From: Archangium violaceum
GTDB lineage: Bacteria > Myxococcota > Myxococcia > Myxococcales > Myxococcaceae
Assembly: GCF_016887565.1 (NCBI RefSeq)
Contig: NZ_CP069396.1
Span: 8,662,001-8,726,000 of the forward strand
Length of the DNA: 64,000 bases
Direction of reading: 5' to 3'
In this document: positions 1,440 to 16,059 of the stretch, piece by piece
Position numbering within the stretch: position 1 is the first letter of the stretch
Layout of the letters: each line of letters opens with the position of its first letter
Translations under genes and position numbers: made by a program
The notes under the pieces: model-generated
The model's input: only the letters and a program-made list of their open reading frames with translations
What the model was told of the DNA's origin: nothing
Databases searched by the model: none

Positions 1440-4400
1440 ATGACAGATAGAAGGATCCTCCGGCACTCCGGCTTGCTCGCGCTCGCCTTGTGCCTGGCAG
1501 GTAACGTGGCCCTGGCGCAGGGAACCTCCGTGCTCCTGGGCACGGTGGTGGATGCGGCCAGCCGGAAGCCCGTGGCGGACGTCGTGGTCACGGCGACCTC
1601 TCCCGCCCTCCAGGGCGAGCAGACGGTCGTCACCGACGCGTCCGGCCAGTATCGCATCCCCCAGCTTCCACCCGGCGTGTACACGCTGAGGTTCGACAGG
1701 GAGGCCTACAAGCCCCTGTCCCGCGAGAACATCGGCGTCCGGCTGGACTACTCGGTGCGCGTCAACGTGGAGCTGCTCCCCGAGGGGCTCGGAGAAGAGA
1801 TGAGCGTGGTGGCCCAGGCGCCCACCGTCGACATCGGCTCCGCCTCCACCGGGGTGAACGTCAGCAAGGACTTCCTGCGCAACATCGCCGTCGTCTCCCC
1901 GAGCGGAAAGGGCGCGGGCTCGCGCTCCTTCGAGGCGCTGGCGGAGCTGGCCCCGGGCGCGAACGCGGACACCTACGGCGTCTCCGTCAGCGGCTCCACC
2001 TCGCCGGAGAACCAGTACATCGTGGATGGCGTCTCGGTGAATGATCCGGGCTTCGGCATCAACGGCACCCCGCTGAGCGTGGAGTTCATCGGCGAGGTGA
2101 ACGTCATCAGCGGCGGCTACCTGCCCGAGTACGGCCGCTCCACCGGCGGCGTGGTCAACGCGGTGACGAAGTCGGGCTCCAACGAGTTCCACGGCTCGGT
2201 GTTCGGCAACCTCACCCCGGGTGCGCTGGGCAGCCGGGGGACGGAGATCCGTCAGGAGGCGGGCACCATCTCCGGCCAGGCCTCGCTGTGGAACCTGGGC
2301 GACATCGGCGCCGAGGTGGGTGGTCCCATCCTCAAGGACAAGCTGTGGTTCTACGCGGGCGTGGCGCCCTCCTTCACCCGGTACCAGCTGGAGCGCAACC
2401 TCAACGCCCTGGTGCTGGACGAGAACGGCCAGCCCGTGCAGGACGAGCTGGGCTTCTCCCAGACGCAGCGCATCGAGGGCACGCGGCGGCTCTTCTTCGC
2501 GGACCAGCGGACCTTCCAGTTCATCGGCAAGCTCACGTATCTGCTCAACCAGGACCACAACGTCAGCGTGTCGGTGACGGGCACGCCGTCGTCCGCGGGA
2601 GGCCCGGGCCGCTTCTCCATCAGCGAGCGCACCGGCGCCCCGGAGGTGGAGCGCATCAACGGCCAGCCGGGGGCCATCGCCACCCAGCGCATCGCCAACA
2701 GCCTGGACACCAGCCTCAAGTGGTCCTCCTCCTTCATGGAGAAGCGCCTGCTCTTCGACGCGACCCTCGGCTGGCACCACCAGGACTTCAGCGCGCGCGC
2801 CTCGGACGGCACGCGGGCCGGCAGCTCCGAGGGGCTCGCTGGCATCTCCAACACCACCTGGGAGCGCACCGTCGGAGGCCAGCACTCCGTCACCGAGTTC
2901 GAGCAGCTGGCGGATCCCTCCATCTGCGCCTCCCCCACCGCCGGGCTGGCCACGCGCTGCCCGGTGCTCTCCTACCTGACGGGCGGTCCGGGCCGCCTGG
3001 ACGAGAGCAAGCTGGATCGCTTCCAGGGCAAGCTCATCGGCACCCTGCTGCTGCAGGCCGGGGGCCAGCACGTCATCAAGGCGGGTCTGGATCTGGAGCA
3101 GATGCGCTACGACCACATCCGCGCGGTGACCGGCAGGACCGTGCTCATCGAGTCGGATGAGGGCGACTACTTCTATGACTACCGCCAGTACGGGTACCTG
3201 ATCGGCCCGGACCAGGTGGTCATCCAGGACTCCCAGCACCCGGTGTCCACGTCCAACTCCGTGGGCGGCTTCCTGCAGGACAGCTGGAGCCTGTTCGACA
3301 TGGCCACCCTCAACGTGGGGTTGCGCTACGACGTCCAACACCTGGTGGGCGGTGGACAGCTCGCCATGGTGCTGGCCAACCAGTGGTCGCCGCGGCTGGG
3401 AGTGATCGTCGACCCCACCCGCTCCGGCAAGGCCAAGCTCTACGCCAACTACGCCCGCTACTACGAGAGCGTCCCGTTGGATCTCGTGGACCGCTCGTTC
3501 CCCGGCGAGCCCGGCGTGCGCTCGCAGAAGGACTCCAGCCTCTGCGACCCGCGCGACCCCGAGCAGCAGCGGGGCGTGTGCTCCACCGACGCCGCGCGCA
3601 TGCCCTACCGGCCCGGGCTGGACTCCAGCCGCCTGTGGGAGACCGTGGGCGCGGGCGCCACCATCGTGGACCCGAGCATCCAGCCCCAGTCCACCGACGA
3701 GTTCGTGGTGGGCGGCGAGTACGAGCTGCTGGCCAACTCGCGCGTCGGCCTGTCCTACACGCATCGCTCCCTCAACATCGCCATCGAGGACATGAGCCGG
3801 GATGACGGCGCCACCTACTTCATCGGCAATCCGGGGCGCGGCTTCGCCACGGACTTCGACAAGCCGCAGCGCACGTATGACGCGGTGACCGTCTTCTTCC
3901 AGAAGAACTTCGCCGACCTCTGGCTGGCCCAGGTCAGCTACACGTGGTCCTCGCTGCGCGGCAACTACGAGGGCCTGTTCCGCTCCGACACCGGCCAGTT
4001 GGATCCGAACATCAACTCCGACTTCGACCTCGTCTCCCTGCTGCCCAACCGCTATGGCCCGCTGCCGGCCGACCGCACGCACCAGTTCAAGGCCTTCGGC
4101 GCGCGTGAGTTCGTCCTGCGGCCCGACCTGAGCATCAACCTGGGCGCGTCCTACCGGGGCAGCTCGGGCACGCCGTACAGCTACCTCGGGGCGCACGAGG
4201 ACTACGGCACGGGACAGGCCTTCATCCTGCCGCGCGGAGAAGCGGGCCGCCTGCCCTGGGTGCACCGCATCGACGGCCGCCTGGCCCTCAACTACAAGAT
4301 GACCCAGCAACTCACCGCCTCGCTCAGCGTGGACGTCTTCAACGTCTTCAACTTCCAGGCGCCCGTCGCGTACGACCAGAACTACACGACCGCGGACGTG

Positions 4401-4559
4401 CTGCCCATCGAGGGAGGAAGCACGAACGATCTGCCGTCGAAGCTGGTGGATCCGGACGGCAACCCGATCGACCCGTCGTCCGTCAACAAGAACTTCGGCA
4501 GGCCCACCGCCTACCAGTCGCCGCGCACCGTCCGGTTCGGCGCCCGGCTGTCCTTCTAA
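1440..4559 (+). CDS. TonB-dependent receptor, Oar-like, with carboxypeptidase regulatory-like N-terminal domain
   Basis: This is a 1039-residue outer-membrane protein. I chose the ATG at 1440 because it places a signal peptide (TDRRILRHSGLLALALCLAG ... ALAQG) at the N-terminus; an in-frame GTG at 1398 would add 14 Pro-rich residues. Residues about 28-105 form a carboxypeptidase regulatory-like domain (TVVDAASRKPVADVVVTATS, then GQYRIPQLPPGVYTL). A plug domain follows (ENQYIVDGVSVNDP, YGRSTGGVVNAVTKSGSNEF), then a long beta-barrel ending in the aromatic C-terminus RFGARLSF. No TonB box is clear. Oar-type receptors transport or secrete substrates across the outer membrane with TonB energy; the substrate is unknown. 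A small lipoprotein gene follows 29 bases downstream and is probably cotranscribed. Confidence 0.92.
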   Translation: MTDRRILRHSGLLALALCLAGNVALAQGTSVLLGTVVDAASRKPVADVVVTATSPALQGEQTVVTDASGQYRIPQLPPGVYTLRFDREAYKPLSRENIGVRLDYSVRVNVELLPEGLGEEMSVVAQAPTVDIGSASTGVNVSKDFLRNIAVVSPSGKGAGSRSFEALAELAPGANADTYGVSVSGSTSPENQYIVDGVSVNDPGFGINGTPLSVEFIGEVNVISGGYLPEYGRSTGGVVNAVTKSGSNEFHGSVFGNLTPGALGSRGTEIRQEAGTISGQASLWNLGDIGAEVGGPILKDKLWFYAGVAPSFTRYQLERNLNALVLDENGQPVQDELGFSQTQRIEGTRRLFFADQRTFQFIGKLTYLLNQDHNVSVSVTGTPSSAGGPGRFSISERTGAPEVERINGQPGAIATQRIANSLDTSLKWSSSFMEKRLLFDATLGWHHQDFSARASDGTRAGSSEGLAGISNTTWERTVGGQHSVTEFEQLADPSICASPTAGLATRCPVLSYLTGGPGRLDESKLDRFQGKLIGTLLLQAGGQHVIKAGLDLEQMRYDHIRAVTGRTVLIESDEGDYFYDYRQYGYLIGPDQVVIQDSQHPVSTSNSVGGFLQDSWSLFDMATLNVGLRYDVQHLVGGGQLAMVLANQWSPRLGVIVDPTRSGKAKLYANYARYYESVPLDLVDRSFPGEPGVRSQKDSSLCDPRDPEQQRGVCSTDAARMPYRPGLDSSRLWETVGAGATIVDPSIQPQSTDEFVVGGEYELLANSRVGLSYTHRSLNIAIEDMSRDDGATYFIGNPGRGFATDFDKPQRTYDAVTVFFQKNFADLWLAQVSYTWSSLRGNYEGLFRSDTGQLDPNINSDFDLVSLLPNRYGPLPADRTHQFKAFGAREFVLRPDLSINLGASYRGSSGTPYSYLGAHEDYGTGQAFILPRGEAGRLPWVHRIDGRLALNYKMTQQLTASLSVDVFNVFNFQAPVAYDQNYTTADVLPIEGGSTNDLPSKLVDPDGNPIDPSSVNKNFGRPTAYQSPRTVRFGARLSF

Positions 4560-4588
4560 CGACCGTGGACAGGAAAGATCCCACGCAC

Positions 4589-5245
4589 ATGACTCGACGA
4601 ATCCTCGGTCTGGCGGTCGCCGCCACCCTCGCCTCTTCCTGTGACACCACGCAGCCGCCCATCGGCTGTCCGGTGCAGAGCCTGGAATGGGCCGCCACCT
4701 ACAAGCCGAAGGGCGAGAGCACCTGCCCCGTGAAGCCGGGGGAGCAGCTCGGCATCCTGAAGTTCTCCACGCCCTCCGGCGACGAGCGGCTCTCCATCAA
4801 CCCCGCGACGCTCGTCGCGCTCAATGAGCGAGACGCGGTGAACCTGTCGTACTCGCTCGGAGCGATGGCCAAGGCCTCGAACGCGGAGGGCTTCTGCTCC
4901 GCCTTGGACATGGCGGTCGCGGAGAAGCACGCTCCCGCCGATGCCACCCGGGAACTGCCCGCGGCGGACATCGTCTACAAGTGGAGCAACGTCCAGGTGC
5001 TCGCCATCGCGAGGGCTCCGGGCACGCAGCTGGTGGCGGACCTGGAGTACACCGAGAACGGGTGTACCGCGCAGTACGAGGTCTGGGCCATGTGGCCTGG
5101 AGACATCGACTGCGAGGGTGAGGACGGGCAGCCGGACAACTCCCTCTGCGAGACCGAGGCGAGCATCAATCCGGACTTCGCGGTCACCTGCGATCCGACC
5201 CAGCTTCGCTGCGTGCCGGCGAAGCGGCCCCCCTCCCTGAAGTAG
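4589..5245 (+). CDS. Hypothetical Cys-rich lipoprotein, companion of TonB-dependent receptor
   Basis: A 218-residue protein starting at ATG 4589, preceded by an AGGAAAG ribosome site at 4571-4577. The signal peptide ends in a lipobox (LASSC, Cys 18). The mature part has several further Cys residues (IGCPVQS, STCPVKPGE, EGFCSALD, ENGCTAQYEV, ITCDP-like), suggesting disulfides outside the cytoplasm. I do not recognise a named domain. Its position just behind the receptor suggests, by inference, a surface or periplasmic accessory lipoprotein of that receptor. The next gene has its own ribosome site after about 120 bases. Confidence 0.75.
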   Translation: MTRRILGLAVAATLASSCDTTQPPIGCPVQSLEWAATYKPKGESTCPVKPGEQLGILKFSTPSGDERLSINPATLVALNERDAVNLSYSLGAMAKASNAEGFCSALDMAVAEKHAPADATRELPAADIVYKWSNVQVLAIARAPGTQLVADLEYTENGCTAQYEVWAMWPGDIDCEGEDGQPDNSLCETEASINPDFAVTCDPTQLRCVPAKRPPSLK

Positions 5246-11233: not shown

Positions 11234-12166
11234 ATGCCCAGCCCACCACCCACCGTCCCCCTGCTGCTCGCGATTCTCGCCACGGCTCCAGCCCTCGCCG
11301 AGCCTCCGTCTGAAGCTTGGGACACGGCGGCCGCTCGCCACCTCGAGCTGACGGCAGAGAGCCCCGGGCAGGTGCACGAGGTGCGTATCAGCCCTGGCCT
11401 CACCACCACCCTGGTGTTCAACGCGCCGCTGCTGCGCGGGGGAGTCGTGGTGGAGGAGCGAGAGCGCTTCCGGGTGGTAACGGTGGACGAGACCACGGGC
11501 TTCGTTGCGCTCCTGCCCTCGGGTGCGCTGTCACCAGGGCAGCGACTGCTCCTCACGGTGCGCTTCGCGGATGGCGCGGTGCCGGCGAGTACCACTTTCC
11601 GACTGGCGGTGCACCCCACCCGGGCCGAGCCACAGGTGAACGTGTACCGCCAGCCGCGCTCGGCCGAGTCCTTTCAGATGGAGGCGCGGCAGGAGCACGA
11701 GCGGGCCGAGCGGTGCGAAGCGCGGCTGGCGCAAGCCCAGACAGAGCAGAAGAGTCCCGGAGGCCTCACCGGGCTCATCGAGTCCGGGCTGGTGGAGGGC
11801 AAGAAAGGCATCGCGGCACAGGACATTTCAGACACCACCCAGCAGCCTCCCGGTGAGACTCTCAAGAGCAACAAGGCTTACAGCTACCGGGCAGAGGGAC
11901 GAGTGGCGGTGGCGCTGGAGGTGGAGAACACGAGCGCGCAGCCCTGGACGGTGGATGAGGAAGGCGCGGCGCTGATGGGCAAGGGAGGCGCGCGGCTACG
12001 GTTGCTGCGTGTATGGCAACCGGAGCCCCTCCCCCCCGGAGGAACGGACCGGGTAGTGGTGGAGGTAGAGGCCACGGAGGTGCAGCCCCGGGGCACCTAT
12101 GTCCTCCGACTGGGAGAGGCGAGCGGGCCGCGCACCATCACCCTTCGTGGCGTGACGTTTCCGTGA
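11234..12166 (+). CDS. DUF2381 family protein (myxobacterial paralogous family)
   Basis: A 310-residue protein from ATG 11234, with GGAGGTAG at 11218-11225. The signal peptide (PLLLAILATAPALAEP) is followed by an N-terminal beta-rich region (VHEVRISPGLTTTLVFNAPL), a charged helical segment (MEARQEHERAERCEARLAQAQTE, shortened here to its first part), and a C-terminal beta domain (VAVALEVENTSAQPWTVDEE, PEPLPPGGTDRVVVEVE). This order is characteristic of DUF2381, a family largely restricted to myxobacteria. Its function is unknown. Adjacency to a transmembrane kinase suggests a periplasmic partner (inference). A strong hairpin follows the stop codon. Confidence 0.85.
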   Translation: MPSPPPTVPLLLAILATAPALAEPPSEAWDTAAARHLELTAESPGQVHEVRISPGLTTTLVFNAPLLRGGVVVEERERFRVVTVDETTGFVALLPSGALSPGQRLLLTVRFADGAVPASTTFRLAVHPTRAEPQVNVYRQPRSAESFQMEARQEHERAERCEARLAQAQTEQKSPGGLTGLIESGLVEGKKGIAAQDISDTTQQPPGETLKSNKAYSYRAEGRVAVALEVENTSAQPWTVDEEGAALMGKGGARLRLLRVWQPEPLPPGGTDRVVVEVEATEVQPRGTYVLRLGEASGPRTITLRGVTFP

Positions 12167-12181
12167 GCCTCTCCCAGAGGG

Positions 12182-12218
12182 CCGGGCCACATCCTCACGA
12201 GCGGAGGATGTGACCCGG
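12182..12218 (+). terminator. Hairpin terminator after DUF2381 gene
   Basis: CCGGG then CACATCCTC (12188-12196) pair with GAGGATGTG (12204-12212) then CCCGG, giving 14 base pairs with one C/A mismatch and a 7-base loop. It starts 16 bases after the stop codon. No T run follows, as is common in GC-rich genomes. Confidence 0.7.
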
Positions 12219-12244
12219 GACGAGTGTGTGGATGGCGGCGGCCT

Positions 12245-12294
12245 GGTGACAGCAGTCATCAGTGATGACGGGTGTCACCTGGGGGCCTGATGAC
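12245..12294. promoter_or_regulatory. Nested palindromes, candidate enhancer (UAS) for the sigma-54 promoter
   Basis: Outer arms GGTGACA (12245-12251) and TGTCACC (12273-12279) enclose inner arms GTCATCA (12255-12261) and TGATGAC (12263-12269) around a single G. A third half-site TGATGAC is at 12288-12294. The centre (12262) lies about 142 bases upstream of the start site predicted from the sigma-54 promoter, within the usual range for binding sites of sigma-54 activator proteins. A transcribed stem-loop is an alternative reading. Confidence 0.5.
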
Positions 12295-12377
12295 GGCGCT
12301 CACCCCCCGGAAGCTCGTGAGGTCCCTGCCTCCGCGTAACTCATCGGAATCACGTCCGGTTACGGGGCGGCCACCCC

Positions 12378-12393
12378 TGGCACGAGCGCTGCA
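12378..12393 (+). promoter_or_regulatory. Sigma-54 (RpoN) promoter, -24/-12 type
   Basis: TGGCACGAGCGCTGCA matches the sigma-54 consensus TGGCACG-N4-TTGC[A/T] at every specified base except one (C for the first T of the -12 element). The GG and GC dinucleotides have the correct spacing. Transcription would start near 12404, giving a leader of about 60 bases before the ATG at 12465. Confidence 0.65.
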
Positions 12394-12464
12394 CTAAGGC
12401 CTTCACGTCAAGGCATCGCCCCCCTCTCTCGGCAACCAGCCCCGTCTTCTCAGGAGATAAGTCC

Positions 12465-13529
12465 ATGCGTATCAAGAGCTTCCCGAAGATCTCGCTCCCC
12501 AACCTCAAGGGACCCAAGGCGCCCACCGCCAAGCCCGACGGCGTGAAGCCCTCGCCGCGCCCGGACATCAACGGCAACCTCCCTGGCAAGAAGCCCGACG
12601 TCGGTCCCAAGTTCTCTCCGCGCCCGGACATCAACGGCAACCTCCCCGGCAAGAAGCCCGACGTCGGTCCCAAGTTCTCGCCGCGCCCGGACATCAACGG
12701 CAACCTCCCCGGCAAGAAGCCCGACGTCGGCCCCAAGTTCTCTCCCCGCCCGGACATCAACGGCAACCTCCCCGTCCAGAAGCCCGACGTCGGCCCCAAG
12801 TTCTCTCCCCGCCCGGACATCAACGGCAACCTCCCCGGCAAGAAGCCGGACTTCAACCTCGACGGGTTCACGCCGGGCAACGGGCTGAACAACCTCAAGC
12901 CGAACCGTCTCGGAGGCCTCGGCGATGGCCTCTCGGCCGCGGGTGATGTGTTGGGCGGTGTGGCGAACGGTGTGGCCGGGCTGGCCGGCGCGGGTCTCGA
13001 GGCGGCCAGCATGCTGCCCGGCGCCCTGGGCATGATGGATCCGTACGCGCTCAGCGGCATGGCTCCGGAGCTGGCCGGTGGTCCGATGATGGACCCGTAC
13101 GCCGCTGGCGCCCTGCCCCCGGAGCTGGCCGCTGGTCCGATGATGGACCCGTACGCCGCCGGCGCCCTGCCTCAGCAGCTGGCCGCTGGTCCGGTGATGG
13201 ACCCGTACGCCGCTGGCGCCCTGCCTCAGCAGCTGGCCGCTGGTCCGGTGATGGACCCGTACGCCGCTGGCGGCCTGCCCCAGCAGCTGAGCGGCCTGAC
13301 GCCTCCGACCGATCTCCAGCACTCGGACCTCGGGAACATCCTCGGCTCGGTGGCCCACGCGCTCGACACCGCGACCCAGGCCCTCGCGGCCGTGAAGGAT
13401 CTCGTGGGCCAGGGCGCCGCCACCGTGGCCCAGCCCCTGCAGAAGAAGCTCGCCGAGAAGCTGCCCACGGAGCTCGCCGCCGTGGTGGCCCCCAGCCAGG
13501 ACGCCCAGGCGGGCATCCAGGAAGTCTGA
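12465..13529 (+). CDS. Repeat-built protein with two tandem repeat arrays, probable partner of the CD38-like protein
   Basis: A 354-residue protein from ATG 12465 with AGGAG at 12452-12456. Residues 30-134 are five copies of a 21-residue Pro/Gly/Asn/Lys repeat beginning SPRPDINGNLPGKKPDVG. Residues about 155-185 are Gly/Ala-rich (SAAGDVLGGVANGVAGLAGA). Residues about 189-277 hold five copies of an 18-residue repeat built around MDPYAAGALPQQL. The C-terminus is helical (NILGSVAHALDTATQALAAVKDLV). There is no signal peptide. The N-terminus (RIKSFPKISLP) resembles that of the next protein (TIRFRPRVNVP). I do not recognise a family. The sigma-54 promoter upstream probably drives this gene and the next, whose start lies 48 bases after this stop. 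Confidence 0.85.
   Translation: MRIKSFPKISLPNLKGPKAPTAKPDGVKPSPRPDINGNLPGKKPDVGPKFSPRPDINGNLPGKKPDVGPKFSPRPDINGNLPGKKPDVGPKFSPRPDINGNLPVQKPDVGPKFSPRPDINGNLPGKKPDFNLDGFTPGNGLNNLKPNRLGGLGDGLSAAGDVLGGVANGVAGLAGAGLEAASMLPGALGMMDPYALSGMAPELAGGPMMDPYAAGALPPELAAGPMMDPYAAGALPQQLAAGPVMDPYAAGALPQQLAAGPVMDPYAAGGLPQQLSGLTPPTDLQHSDLGNILGSVAHALDTATQALAAVKDLVGQGAATVAQPLQKKLAEKLPTELAAVVAPSQDAQAGIQEV
12552..12866 (+). repeat. Five in-frame 63-bp tandem repeats
   Basis: Units start at 12552, 12615, 12678, 12741 and 12804. The first four are almost identical; the fourth changes GK to VQ, and the last diverges after its first 15 codons. The period is exactly 21 codons, so the array is coding and can change copy number without breaking the reading frame. 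Confidence 0.9.
13029..13295 (+). repeat. Five in-frame 51/54-bp tandem repeats (MDPYA repeats)
   Basis: A divergent first unit at 13029-13079 (17 codons) is followed by four 18-codon units starting at 13080, 13134, 13188 and 13242. Each encodes GP-[MV]-MDPYAAG-[AG]-LP-[PQ]-[EQ]-L. The third and fourth units are almost identical at DNA level, which suggests recent duplication. Confidence 0.9.
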
Positions 13530-13577
13530 TTCCCAGGGCCAGGGAAACCTGGGCAACCCCCTACGAACGGTGCACCC

Positions 13578-14594
13578 ATGACCATCCGATTCCGCCCCCG
13601 AGTGAATGTCCCCCTGCCGACGAGCACCCAAGACAAACCCACCTCGGTCGGTGCACCGTCGAAGACCCCCCCCACCCAGAGCGCGAACGGGCTCCACACT
13701 CCCCGGACTCCGGGGAGCACCGACGGCTTCGACGGCCCGGTCCGCCCGAACAGGGCCAATCGCCCGGAGCTCGCCGGAACCCTGGCGGAGATGCGAGTCC
13801 CCGTGGAGCAGGCCATGGGCCCCGCCCTGTCCTCGGGCAAGCACAGCACCACCGCGGCCCAGGTGCTCGACCTGAAGAACCCCCTCTCGCACCCCGAGGC
13901 GCCGCAATTCCAGCAGGCCTTCAACGCGCTCGGCATGAGCGAGGGGAAGACATCGGAGGTGTGGAGCGACATCCTCCATGGCGTGAAGCGCCAGGAGGAG
14001 ATCCGGGCCAACGTCAAGGAGAGCCGGACCACTCCCTGGACCCCGGACAAGCCCGTTCCGGACAAGTCCAACCCGCACTACGAGAAGGTGGCCCAGGAGC
14101 TGGGACCCTACCTGCGCATCGAGGACGGCCAGGGACCGCTGGCGCTCTGGTCGGGCGGCTACGATGTGAGCAAGCACGCCCAGCTCAAGGGGTACACCAC
14201 GCTGGAGAGCACACCGGCCGGCCGGGCCCTCTCGGGGCTGGAGATCTACAAGGACCCCAAGGCCGTCACGCCCATGTGGAACCATCTCTCCGAGGAGTTC
14301 GTGAGGCAGAACCCGGAGGGGACCGCGCACGCCTTCATGCGCACCCATGATCCGACGAGCGTGCTCTACCGCCAGGAGATCCAGACGATCGAGAAGTTCT
14401 CGCCCGATCGACCCGTGACCTGGCATCCCCTCGTGGGAGACAAGTTGGAGGATTTCCAGGCCGTCCAGCCGAACAAGACGCTCGGTCCCGACTCGGCGTA
14501 TACGAGCGAGGCGCAGGCGCGCAAGGACCTGAAGGACTACCTGTCCCAGACGAACAGTGAGAGCTTCTCGGCCCAGGCCATGAAGATCCTCTGA
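13578..14594 (+). CDS. Putative CD38/ADP-ribosyl cyclase-like NADase effector
   Basis: A 338-residue protein. The N-terminal ~60 residues are Pro/Thr-rich and disordered-looking, without a signal peptide. From about residue 187 the sequence carries the landmarks of the CD38/ADP-ribosyl cyclase family in order: LALWSGG (Trp 191), YTTLEST (Glu 210), PMWNHLSEEF (Trp 234) and LYRQEIQT (Glu 267). In human CD38 the equivalents are FWS (Trp125), FTLEDT (Glu146), VFWKTVSRRF (Trp189) and GSVEV (Glu226), which form the NAD-cleaving site. The CD38 disulfide cysteines are absent, which fits a cytoplasmic enzyme. I infer an NAD(P)-hydrolysing or cyclising effector, possibly an antibacterial toxin. It sits 48 bases behind the repeat protein gene, and its ribosome site is weak. 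Confidence 0.6.
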   Translation: MTIRFRPRVNVPLPTSTQDKPTSVGAPSKTPPTQSANGLHTPRTPGSTDGFDGPVRPNRANRPELAGTLAEMRVPVEQAMGPALSSGKHSTTAAQVLDLKNPLSHPEAPQFQQAFNALGMSEGKTSEVWSDILHGVKRQEEIRANVKESRTTPWTPDKPVPDKSNPHYEKVAQELGPYLRIEDGQGPLALWSGGYDVSKHAQLKGYTTLESTPAGRALSGLEIYKDPKAVTPMWNHLSEEFVRQNPEGTAHAFMRTHDPTSVLYRQEIQTIEKFSPDRPVTWHPLVGDKLEDFQAVQPNKTLGPDSAYTSEAQARKDLKDYLSQTNSESFSAQAMKIL

Positions 14595-14667
14595 GTCAGG
14601 CCCTGGCTCCCGACCGGGGAACCGGGATACTGGGTGCGAGAACCCTCTTCCGCACCCGGAGTCCCTC

Positions 14668-16059
14668 ATGTTCCCGCATCGCGCGCCCCTGGCGCGTCTG
14701 CTCGGTGTCCTGCTGCTCTCCCTGACCGCCCTGGCGCACGCGGCGGAGCCGAGCCCCAAGGCTCCCGCCACCCCCAAGGCTCCGGGAACACCGTTCCCCC
14801 AGGAGGTGCTGCACACCTCGGAGCTCTTCTACTCGGTGTTGCTGTTCCACCCGACGGAGCCGAAGGGCAACGTGGTGGCGGAAGCGAACGCGCTGCTGGC
14901 GGCGAAGTACAAGGAGCTCAACGGCGCGTGGAAGTCCGGCGCGCCGGCCCCCGAGGTCGTCATCGAGAGGGTGTCACAGGACAAGTTGGATCCGATCGAC
15001 GAGGAGCTCCTGCGCTACTTCGGCGGGAAGGTGGAGCCCGAGGATCGCAAGCGGCTGCTGGGCGCGAAGCACGCGACGGCGCTGAACTTCCACATCCCCT
15101 TCGCCAAGCGCCACGAGTCGCTGCTGGCGGCCATGCGCTTCGCGCACCAGCTCGCCACCCAGCAGAAGGCCCTCCTCTGGGACGCCGAGACGCGCGAGTA
15201 CTTCTCCCCCAAGAGCTGGAAGGAGATGCGGGTGGACGGCTGGACCGGTGGAGTGCCCTCGATTCCCGCGCACATCACGATGCACGTGTACGCCAGCCGT
15301 GGGGCCCAGCGGATGGTCACCCTCGGGATGGTGAAGCTGGGCCTGCCGGATCTGGTGGTGGAGCAGGTGCCGGGCTCGATGACGACCGAGATGGGGAAGC
15401 TCGTCAACGCCGTGGCGCAGTTGCTCACCGAGGGGCTGGAGCCCGCGAAGACCGGAGAGCTGGCGGTGGACCTGACGCGCGTGAAGGACGCCCGGGTGCA
15501 GCGCATGGTCGCGGCGGATGATCCGAAGACGGCGCGGCGGAACGCGAAGTTGTGGGCCATCGAGGGCCGCCGGGACAATGGAGACCCGGAGAACCCGCTG
15601 CTGGAGATCGCCTTCCCGGGGAGCGGGTCGGCGCACGAGCGGCAACTGGCGGCGCTCGACGGGCTGTTCGGCAAGAAGCCGGACAACATCACCGCCGCGC
15701 CCCCGGGAGACCCGGAGCTGGAGGCGGTGGCTCGCAAGGCACGCGCCCGGCTCAACGAGCTGCGTCCCCGCATCGCCAAGGGAATCCATCCACCCGAGGT
15801 GCTCCTGGTGAAGGCGGGCTTCCGCACGGATGACGACAACCTCGAGTACATGTGGATGGAGGTCATCACCTGGGAGAAGGACCGGCTGAAGGGGACGCTG
15901 GCCAACGAGCCCTTCAACGTGAGCCGGCTTCGCCGGGGCTCGCCCGTGGACGTGGCGGAGTCGGAGGTGCAGGACTACCTCTACATGAGCCCCAACGGCA
16001 CGCGTGAGGGCGGCGAGAGCAGCACCATCCTCATGCGCCGCGAGCAACAGGGCCAGTAG
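14668..16059 (+). CDS. Exported DUF2314 domain protein
   Basis: A 463-residue protein from ATG 14668 (GGAGTC upstream). A signal peptide (LLGVLLLSLTALAHAAE) precedes about 370 residues without a recognised domain, which include an HVYASRGAQRMVTLGM segment. Residues about 393-440 match DUF2314: YMWMEVITWEKDRLKGTLAN, then a Gly-x-Pro turn and SEVQDYLY. DUF2314 proteins are common in myxobacteria and elsewhere, with unknown function. The gene lies 73 bases after the CD38-like gene on the same strand. Its signal peptide argues against it being a cytoplasmic antidote to an NADase, so a shared role is only a possibility. Confidence 0.75.
   Translation: MFPHRAPLARLLGVLLLSLTALAHAAEPSPKAPATPKAPGTPFPQEVLHTSELFYSVLLFHPTEPKGNVVAEANALLAAKYKELNGAWKSGAPAPEVVIERVSQDKLDPIDEELLRYFGGKVEPEDRKRLLGAKHATALNFHIPFAKRHESLLAAMRFAHQLATQQKALLWDAETREYFSPKSWKEMRVDGWTGGVPSIPAHITMHVYASRGAQRMVTLGMVKLGLPDLVVEQVPGSMTTEMGKLVNAVAQLLTEGLEPAKTGELAVDLTRVKDARVQRMVAADDPKTARRNAKLWAIEGRRDNGDPENPLLEIAFPGSGSAHERQLAALDGLFGKKPDNITAAPPGDPELEAVARKARARLNELRPRIAKGIHPPEVLLVKAGFRTDDDNLEYMWMEVITWEKDRLKGTLANEPFNVSRLRRGSPVDVAESEVQDYLYMSPNGTREGGESSTILMRREQQGQ

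Follow-up and report, generated by a model that had tools for sequence, protein, structure and literature searches.

Does a near-consensus sigma-54 element in front of a gene pair of Archangium violaceum act as a promoter, and to which regulator and which process might it belong? The question arises in a 64,000-nucleotide stretch of this myxobacterium (contig NZ_CP069396.1, positions 8,662,001 to 8,726,000 of the forward strand; hereafter the window), where a -24/-12 element at 12378-12393 precedes genes for a repeat protein and a putative NADase. A first-pass annotation, made from the letters and their open reading frames, had proposed that the element drives this pair and had tied it to development and starvation. 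From comparison of related loci we consider, with a probability of roughly 0.8, that the element is a true sigma-54 promoter belonging to a regulon of several genes, which has an FHA-domain enhancer-binding protein (EBP) as its activator and a co-regulated arsenal of exported effectors as its most likely role. Scattered, similarly built promoters seem to switch on, via one activator, a set of proteins that may be secreted weapons.

Conservation of the -24/-12 element and its upstream dyads

The element and the gene pair that follows it are laid out as below:

12378..12393, plus strand: sigma-54 -24/-12 element TGGCACG-AGCG-CTGCA (TGGCACGAGCGCTGCA, a 16-mer), from sequence match and homologue conservation
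12404, plus strand: predicted transcription start, 12 nt past the C (12392) of the -12 GC, by arithmetic
12465..13529, plus strand: gene for a 354-aa repeat protein that lacks a hydrophobic N-terminus, from sequence analysis
13578..14594, plus strand: gene for a 338-aa putative NAD(P)ase with a disordered leader (about residues 1-94) and a CD38/ADP-ribosyl cyclase-like domain, from fold and residues

Consensus and scoring weights for sigma-54 sites are general background for this promoter class. Against TGGCACG-N4-TTGCW, TGGCACGAGCGCTGCA has one mismatch, and no other place in the window matches TGGCACGNNNNTTGCW with one mismatch or none, the second listed match having 2; 72 nt separate its 3' end from the ATG at 12465. 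Sequence, strand, coordinates, the one-base deviation and the distance to the start codon had all been given correctly in the first-pass annotation. A sigma-54 gene is present in the genome, where an RpoN-type DNA-binding domain (PF04552) occurs at C1:11058321-11058797 (E 9.4e-66). A scan of 12150-14700 gave no sigma-70-like promoter match and no terminator-like match, and Rfam at gathering thresholds gave no match in 12100-14700.

That the promoter is genuine, and not a chance match, follows from comparison (conservation before homologues and a fixed distance to upstream dyads) and not from the motif alone. Matches to the repeat gene were found in 11 of the 59 genomes searched. The fetched stretches contained 19 distinct frames that counted as repeat-gene homologues, of which one (L049) is cut by a contig end, leaving 18 intact; weak matches in G030, G052 and at G004:C303:15300 lie outside these 19 frames. 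All 18 intact homologues examined have a -24/-12 site upstream, a count made with a looser pattern than the one behind the alignment of 19 promoters, which combines the 18 repeat-gene promoters with a copy in G003 that stands directly before the NADase gene. Upstream of each of the 19 aligned promoters are tandem 18-bp dyads with the half-sites TGGTGAC/GTCACCA and a 4-nt spacer, and in all 19 the first dyad lies 134 or 135 nt from the -24 T. The sequence architecture is conserved: mean column identity is 89.5% over the first 27 columns of the upstream activating sequence (UAS), 67.6% in the spacer, and 98.7% at the specified positions of the -24/-12 element, the last figure being partly due to selection because a pattern shaped like the promoter had served to collect the 19. 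Model R1 finds at least 23 places at E <1e-20, 19 of which had built the model and 4 of which are new (two in G064, one in G071 and one at G033:C2); the scan was limited to 52 first-look candidates per genome, and weaker matches occur in most of the 58 genomes.

The dyads of the window, which were missed in the first-pass annotation, span 73-134 nt upstream of the -24 T:

12244..12261, no strand: dyad 1, TGGTGAC-AGCA-GTCATCA, candidate UAS; its core, 12245-12260, is among the 46 genome dyads described below
12263..12280, no strand: dyad 2, TGATGAC-GGGT-GTCACCT, candidate UAS, from the alignment and the genome dyad list
12288..12305, no strand: dyad 3, TGATGAC-GGCG-CTCACCC, candidate UAS whose core has one mismatch, from the alignment

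Thus the proposal of a sigma-54 promoter before the gene pair is upheld on grounds beyond the consensus match, namely conservation before homologues and dyads at a set distance.

In locus L051 of G003, on the minus strand, three promoter copies stand in a row (3461, 5410 and 7586), before two repeat genes and the NADase gene, which suggests tandem duplication of the promoter together with its enhancer.

Between dyads and promoter lies a possible site for a DNA-bending protein resembling integration host factor (IHF):

12337..12349, minus strand: IHF-like element slot, near consensus in many sister promoters and degenerate in the window (3 mismatches)

The IHF consensus is WATCAANNNNTTR. With at most one mismatch it occurs in the 70 nt before the -24 element in 26 of 67 promoters, many of which are homologous to one another, as against 29 of 385 upstream windows of other genes; many of the matches lie at -40/-41 from the -24 T, and 300 first-order Markov resamplings gave a mean count of 0.4 and a maximum of 4.

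Dyad-linked promoters across the genome

There are 46 genomic matches to the dyad pattern GRTGACNNNNGTCAYC, compared with 2 per strand for the reversed pattern. The first scoring took in 43 of these dyads, 18 intergenic (in 11 clusters) and 25 within genes, and a sigma-54 site was called strong if it scored at least 19.2 of 21.7 and lay no more than 200 nt away on one side of the dyad. Such a site accompanies 9 of the 11 scored intergenic clusters and none of the 25 in-gene dyads (best in-gene score 18.5), the chance rate being 0.8% per dyad. The remaining three dyads are two from the window and one from the repeat-protein paralogue at L038; both promoters score 21.4, bringing the total to 11 of 13 clusters. 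Furthermore, a composite pattern joining dyad and promoter, GTCAYC-N62-92-TGGCAYRNNNNNTGCW, has 10 matches in this genome and none when reversed. Eight of the 10 had already been found, one (11038195) is a convincing new member and one (7862629) is doubtful. Coordinates of genes outside the window come from our own codon-composition gene finder, with no annotation used, and the gene start in L082 was set by eye.

The doubtful match at C1:7862629 (L165) was rejected as a regulon member, as it fits the composite pattern but the dyad test gives no promoter there. It holds a full-consensus TGGCACGCCTGTTGCT, with the gene of a response-regulator-type EBP about 1.1 kb further downstream and in the same orientation; look-alikes of this match are found in six relatives (G001-G005 and G015), and it is possibly a separate sigma-54 promoter. 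At 5501814 (L113) a perfect TGGTGACAGCAGTCACCA dyad precedes the gene for a ricin/thaumatin-domain protein with a lipoprotein-like start, with no strong sigma-54 site near.

An FHA-domain protein as candidate activator

One EBP gene near the dyads encodes the candidate activator:

C1:11481097-11482470 (L121:1398-2774): gene for a protein with FHA/YscD_cpl, Sigma54_activat and HTH_8 domains, candidate activator

This gene ends 1.3 kb before the dyads of an M4 protease gene, and its product has the marks of an NtrC-type EBP, namely a GAFTGA-bearing AAA+ domain of the kind that interacts with sigma-54, and a helix-turn-helix (HTH) for DNA binding. Orthologues of at least 71% identity are found in 25 of 58 genomes, in genera g1, g11, g14, g15, g23 and g26. 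The composite pattern is matched 2-19 times in each of 24 of the 25, and 0 times in G018, the single g14 genome; the remaining 33 genomes have 0-2 matches, as do the reversed controls.

The dyad promoters are also linked to the activator gene. The neighbourhoods compared were those of 20 orthologues (12 kb each, one of 8 kb) and of the A. violaceum gene itself (8 kb). A promoter is present in 9 of the 11 neighbourhoods fetched for the EBP alone, the misses being G018 and G080, and in 10 of 10, the A. violaceum one included, that had been chosen since a nearby match was already seen. Control stretches amounting to 197,621 bases contained only the promoter of the window and two promoters of NADase orthologues, and none of five other FHA-domain EBPs of this genome (47-50% identity) has a promoter nearby, these being examined over 5-8 kb each instead of 8-12 kb. 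The targets beside the EBP gene are of an M4-protease type in g1 and g11, of a MSLAPLSRN type in four g15 genomes and of a MALSPLSK type or similar in g26; because they differ between genera, the linkage is not one inherited arrangement. The recognition helix IDRVYLRKLL[KR]KHG is kept in the A. violaceum EBP and in 19 of 20 relatives. In G018, the only genome with a close orthologue and no composite match, the helix of the EBP (L157) reads IARLYLRKLLHKHG, and this protein offers a natural, ready-made specificity control. Together, linkage and co-occurrence suggest that the FHA-domain EBP is likely the activator of the dyad promoters.

In light of these observations, we propose that the EBP would bind the two or three tandem TGGTGAC-N4-GTCACCA dyads, which stand between about -160 and -99 relative to the predicted start, and that DNA bending would bring it to RNA polymerase-sigma54 at the -24/-12 element. 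In many sister promoters the bend would probably be aided by an IHF-like protein at the slot some 40 nt before the -24 T. ATP hydrolysis would then open the promoter. The output in the window would be the repeat protein and the CD38-fold putative NADase, and elsewhere in the genome transglycosylases, M91 and M4 proteases and thaumatin- or allergen-like proteins, mostly without a hydrophobic N-terminus.

Products of the putative regulon

The promoters are associated with a particular class of genes. Targets in the A. violaceum genome include an M91 'effector protein' peptidase (L102, E 1.5e-16), proteins of transglycosylase type with LysM and SLT domains (L110) or SLT (L116), an M4 thermolysin lacking a Sec-like start (L083/L121), a protein with a weak thaumatin match (L114) and an Asp f 4 allergen-like protein (L117), besides the repeat-protein paralogue at L038 and the gene pair of the window. 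L118 and L082 gave no family match in our scans. At L164 a short leader-like frame is followed by a truncated SLT frame (4275-5119); the arrangement resembles a transglycosylase split in two frames, only the second of which matches SLT, truncated.

Targets in the A. violaceum genome mostly carry a leader rich in Pro, Ser and Thr, in which a [D/S]-x-F motif is often present at about residues 39-65. Over all fetched loci, where many of the target proteins are mutually homologous, the motif [DS][GSDE]F occurs in the first 110 residues of 34 of 56 target proteins, compared with 38 of 554 background proteins, and Pro, Ser and Thr together make up on average 31.6% of the first 60 residues in targets (n=56) and 17.9% in the background (n=554). 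By a crude hydropathy test a hydrophobic N-terminus is present in 1 of 56 targets and 119 of 554 background proteins. Based on these products, a co-regulated arsenal of exported effectors directed against other cells is the most likely role of the regulon. The tie to development and starvation drawn in the first-pass annotation is not supported, since lytic and effector-like proteins are what the other genes behind such promoters encode, and these would fit predation or antagonism better. A C-terminal stretch like WKGAAEGVLGALGTGKVNPASALLGAYTGAL...APQEVKD is common to the repeat paralogue at L038 and to regulon proteins at L085, L092, L094 and L095; the repeat protein of the window is without it.

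The repeat protein and the CD38-like putative NADase

The repeat-protein gene contains two arrays, 4.8 copies of 63 bp at 12551-12851 and 4.8 copies of 54 bp at 13032-13289. The NADase gene, which has matches in 8 of 59 genomes, follows after a gap of 48 nt with no sigma-70-like promoter or terminator match. Of 5 Archangium loci with the NADase gene, 4 keep the two genes adjacent, and in G003 the NADase gene has its own full promoter; the two genes of the window are likely on one transcript. In G033 and G019, where the NADase gene has no adjacent repeat gene, it keeps a dyad with one mismatch and TGGCACGGAAGACGCA with a weak -12, and in both genomes another gene (MITISAFQW...) follows it. For a distant homologue in G034 (L008/L015), the scan of L015 showed no such promoter.

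The 338-aa protein had no match in Pfam, NCBIfam or PADLOC at E 1 and no single-sequence match in PDB. A PDB search with a profile of 8 homologues listed 20 chains, 19 of them named ADP-ribosyl cyclase 1, at E values of 0.25-1.7 that are not significant; the twentieth, an 'uncharacterized protein', aligns in the same way. In the AlphaFold model (mean pLDDT 67.8) the first 94 residues or so are disordered, while most of the remainder is modelled with confidence, low values being confined to the leader. With this model Foldseek places ADP-ribosyl cyclase/CD38 entries at ranks 1-9, with E from 1.8e-3 to 0.11 (all above 0.001) and low TM-scores of 0.21-0.39, and the best match in VIA is CD38 (Z 9.2, root-mean-square deviation 4.8, 170 aligned residues, 12% identity), a Vibrio RDTND NADase domain also being matched (Z 8.8). 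All 8 homologues have W191, E210, W234 and E267 unchanged, and these residues align to the CD38 chains. The corresponding W-E-W-E residues of the bacterial toxin ARCtox are W273, E299, W323 and E356 (PMC12605009), and the order as well as the E-W spacing of 24 and the W-E spacing of 33 are equal in the two proteins. Hence the earlier designation as a putative NADase gains support from fold and active-site residues alike.

The flanking genes were considered as partners of the pair. The downstream DUF2314 gene was rejected as an immunity protein, being present only in G005 among the seven loci compared, and the upstream DUF2381 gene was rejected as part of the unit because a comparison with those seven loci of relatives did not find it. 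With the exception of DUF2314 in G005, the two immediate flanking genes of the window are not conserved over the seven loci, so that no immunity gene is apparent next to the NADase. The features by which a polymorphic toxin would be recognised were likewise not found: Pfam and NCBIfam show no known delivery domain, and the seven loci show no conserved adjacent immunity gene. Directly 3' of the DUF2381 gene is an inverted repeat, ccgggccacatcctc/gaggatgtgacccgg at 12183-12221, which is without a T tract and went uncalled in the terminator scan; it is perhaps the terminator of that gene.

Alternative explanations

A chance near-consensus match at the site, with transcription of the pair from some other promoter, is very improbable. 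The motif is as frequent genome-wide as its reversed control, with 17 sites for TGGCACGNNNNYTGCW against 17 reversed-pattern controls in the 13.2-Mb Archangium genome, and because the two counts are equal motif counting alone was rejected as evidence; in the window, too, the site's own pattern with up to 2 mismatches is in no excess (10 matches against 12.1 expected). One of the 17 sites, 1711151, has no dyad close by in the genome dyad list. Places matched by TGGCACGNNCGCTGCA alone, namely dyad-less ones in G070:C4 and G004:C135 and also two in G008, were treated as chance. The site of the window, however, is conserved, has its dyads at a fixed distance and recurs in its architecture before unrelated genes, and with no sigma-70-like match in the scanned region the chance reading is already contradicted. 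We regard it as equally improbable that the dyads, instead of being activator sites, form hairpins or terminators for the genes upstream. They are indeed inverted repeats and lie 3' of the upstream gene in the window, but they come two or three in tandem at a set distance from the -24 element, they show no terminator-like match, and they are kept where the DUF2381 gene was not found.

Less remote, though still unlikely, is a different activator, in which case another EBP or a hetero-oligomer of paralogues would bind the dyads and the linkage to the FHA-domain EBP would be a by-product of synteny. Further FHA-domain EBPs do exist, in this genome (the five at 47-50% identity) and as close paralogues in relatives, and both G018, with an EBP but no composite match, and G080, where linkage is absent, are in keeping with it. 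This explanation sits poorly with the recurrence of the linkage beside different target genes in different genera, with the recognition helix kept in 19 of 20 relatives and with the lack of linkage for the five other EBPs. Unlikely to a similar degree is that the promoter serves starvation and fruiting-body development, its products being structural or lytic developmental proteins. Sigma-54 regulators, FHA-domain EBPs included, are tied to development of M. xanthus in PMC6971385, and lytic enzymes could serve developmental lysis; but the M91 effector-type protease and the CD38-fold protein look like weapons, and Pfam and NCBIfam scans of the products of this genome gave no known developmental family, save weak, below-cutoff spore-coat LysM matches in L110.

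Several observations weigh against a sigma-54 regulon of exported effectors under the FHA-domain EBP, the equality of motif count and reversed control among them. The promoter of the window is absent from the 10 composite matches, which missed it because its third dyad is imperfect, and its IHF-like slot is degenerate, with three mismatches. Two intergenic dyad clusters, 308740 and 5501814, are without a strong sigma-54 site and were not counted in the regulon. With 2 mismatches allowed, a stricter tandem-dyad pattern is found in only 19 of the 25 genomes with a close EBP orthologue and also in G020 and G028, with 0 in controls; G080 has composite matches and yet no promoter in the 12 kb compared around its best EBP orthologue; several genomes carry two to four EBPs of more than 70% identity, which could share the dyad site; and related genomes are not independent of one another. 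As to the products, one target has a Sec-like start (L115, CBM6/I36) and another, a MshEN protein behind a promoter with a weak -12 (L111), is off the theme. The hydropathy test is a crude stand-in for a signal-peptide predictor. The frequency of [DS]-x-F at residues 35-72 in 10 of 14 targets of this genome versus 10 of 270 background genes has an optimistic P of 2e-10, because the leader motif was first read off these same proteins.

Relation to known systems and biological meaning

Like promoters of NtrC-type EBPs, those described here combine a -24/-12 element, upstream tandem dyads, in many members an IHF-like slot, and an EBP with FHA, Sigma54_activat and HTH_8 domains; they differ in that the spacing between dyad and promoter is rigid within the repeat-gene family. 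Among the open-licence papers listed, literature searches found no description of the TGGTGAC-N4-GTCACCA dyad, its regulon or its target set, which is a weak negative. The dyad, the assignment of the activator and the target set appear to be new, while the parts of the promoter themselves are textbook enhancer-dependent. FHA-domain EBPs of M. xanthus were reportedly treated by Jelsbak in 2005, under a title said to concern fruiting-body development. The candidate activator shares with those proteins the domain order FHA, AAA+, HTH, but is linked here to effector-like genes.

Bacterial toxins with a CD38-type ADP-ribosyl cyclase fold, ARCtox and Tac1, are reported in PMC12605009, with a related paper in PMC12356396. 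In fold, W-E-W-E order and the two spacings the putative NADase of the window is like ARCtox. Unlike toxins of the ARCtox type, it is a stand-alone protein with a disordered leader, in which no known delivery domain was found and next to which no immunity gene is apparent. For the predation machinery of M. xanthus, made up of the Tad-like Kil system and a needleless type III secretion system (T3SS*), effectors are said to be unknown or only proposed in a 2023 review (PMC10433427) and a 2025 study (PMC12075869). The regulon supplies effector candidates of the expected kind. T3SS loci were rejected as members of it, as about 80 kb round two FHIPEP genes held no promoter of the dyad class and gave no link to these machines, in a search that did not take in the Kil genes.

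Together these observations make the regulon a candidate effector arsenal for predation. A more specific version is possible, though unlikely, in which the Sec-less hydrolases and the NADase would form the effector repertoire of contact-dependent predation, the [D/S]-x-F motif of the leader would be the export signal for Kil/T3SS* or an undescribed route, and one EBP would be the switch. The CD38-fold putative NADase is an addition outside the delivery settings named in PMC12605009, i.e. the type VI and type VII secretion systems (T6SS, T7SS) and contact-dependent inhibition (CDI). More generally, a DNA signature picks out about a dozen loci in the genome, most of which encode lytic or toxin-like products that lack a Sec-like start, together with a single candidate activator, and such a short list combined with deletion of one gene may provide a way to address the question of the effectors of contact killing.
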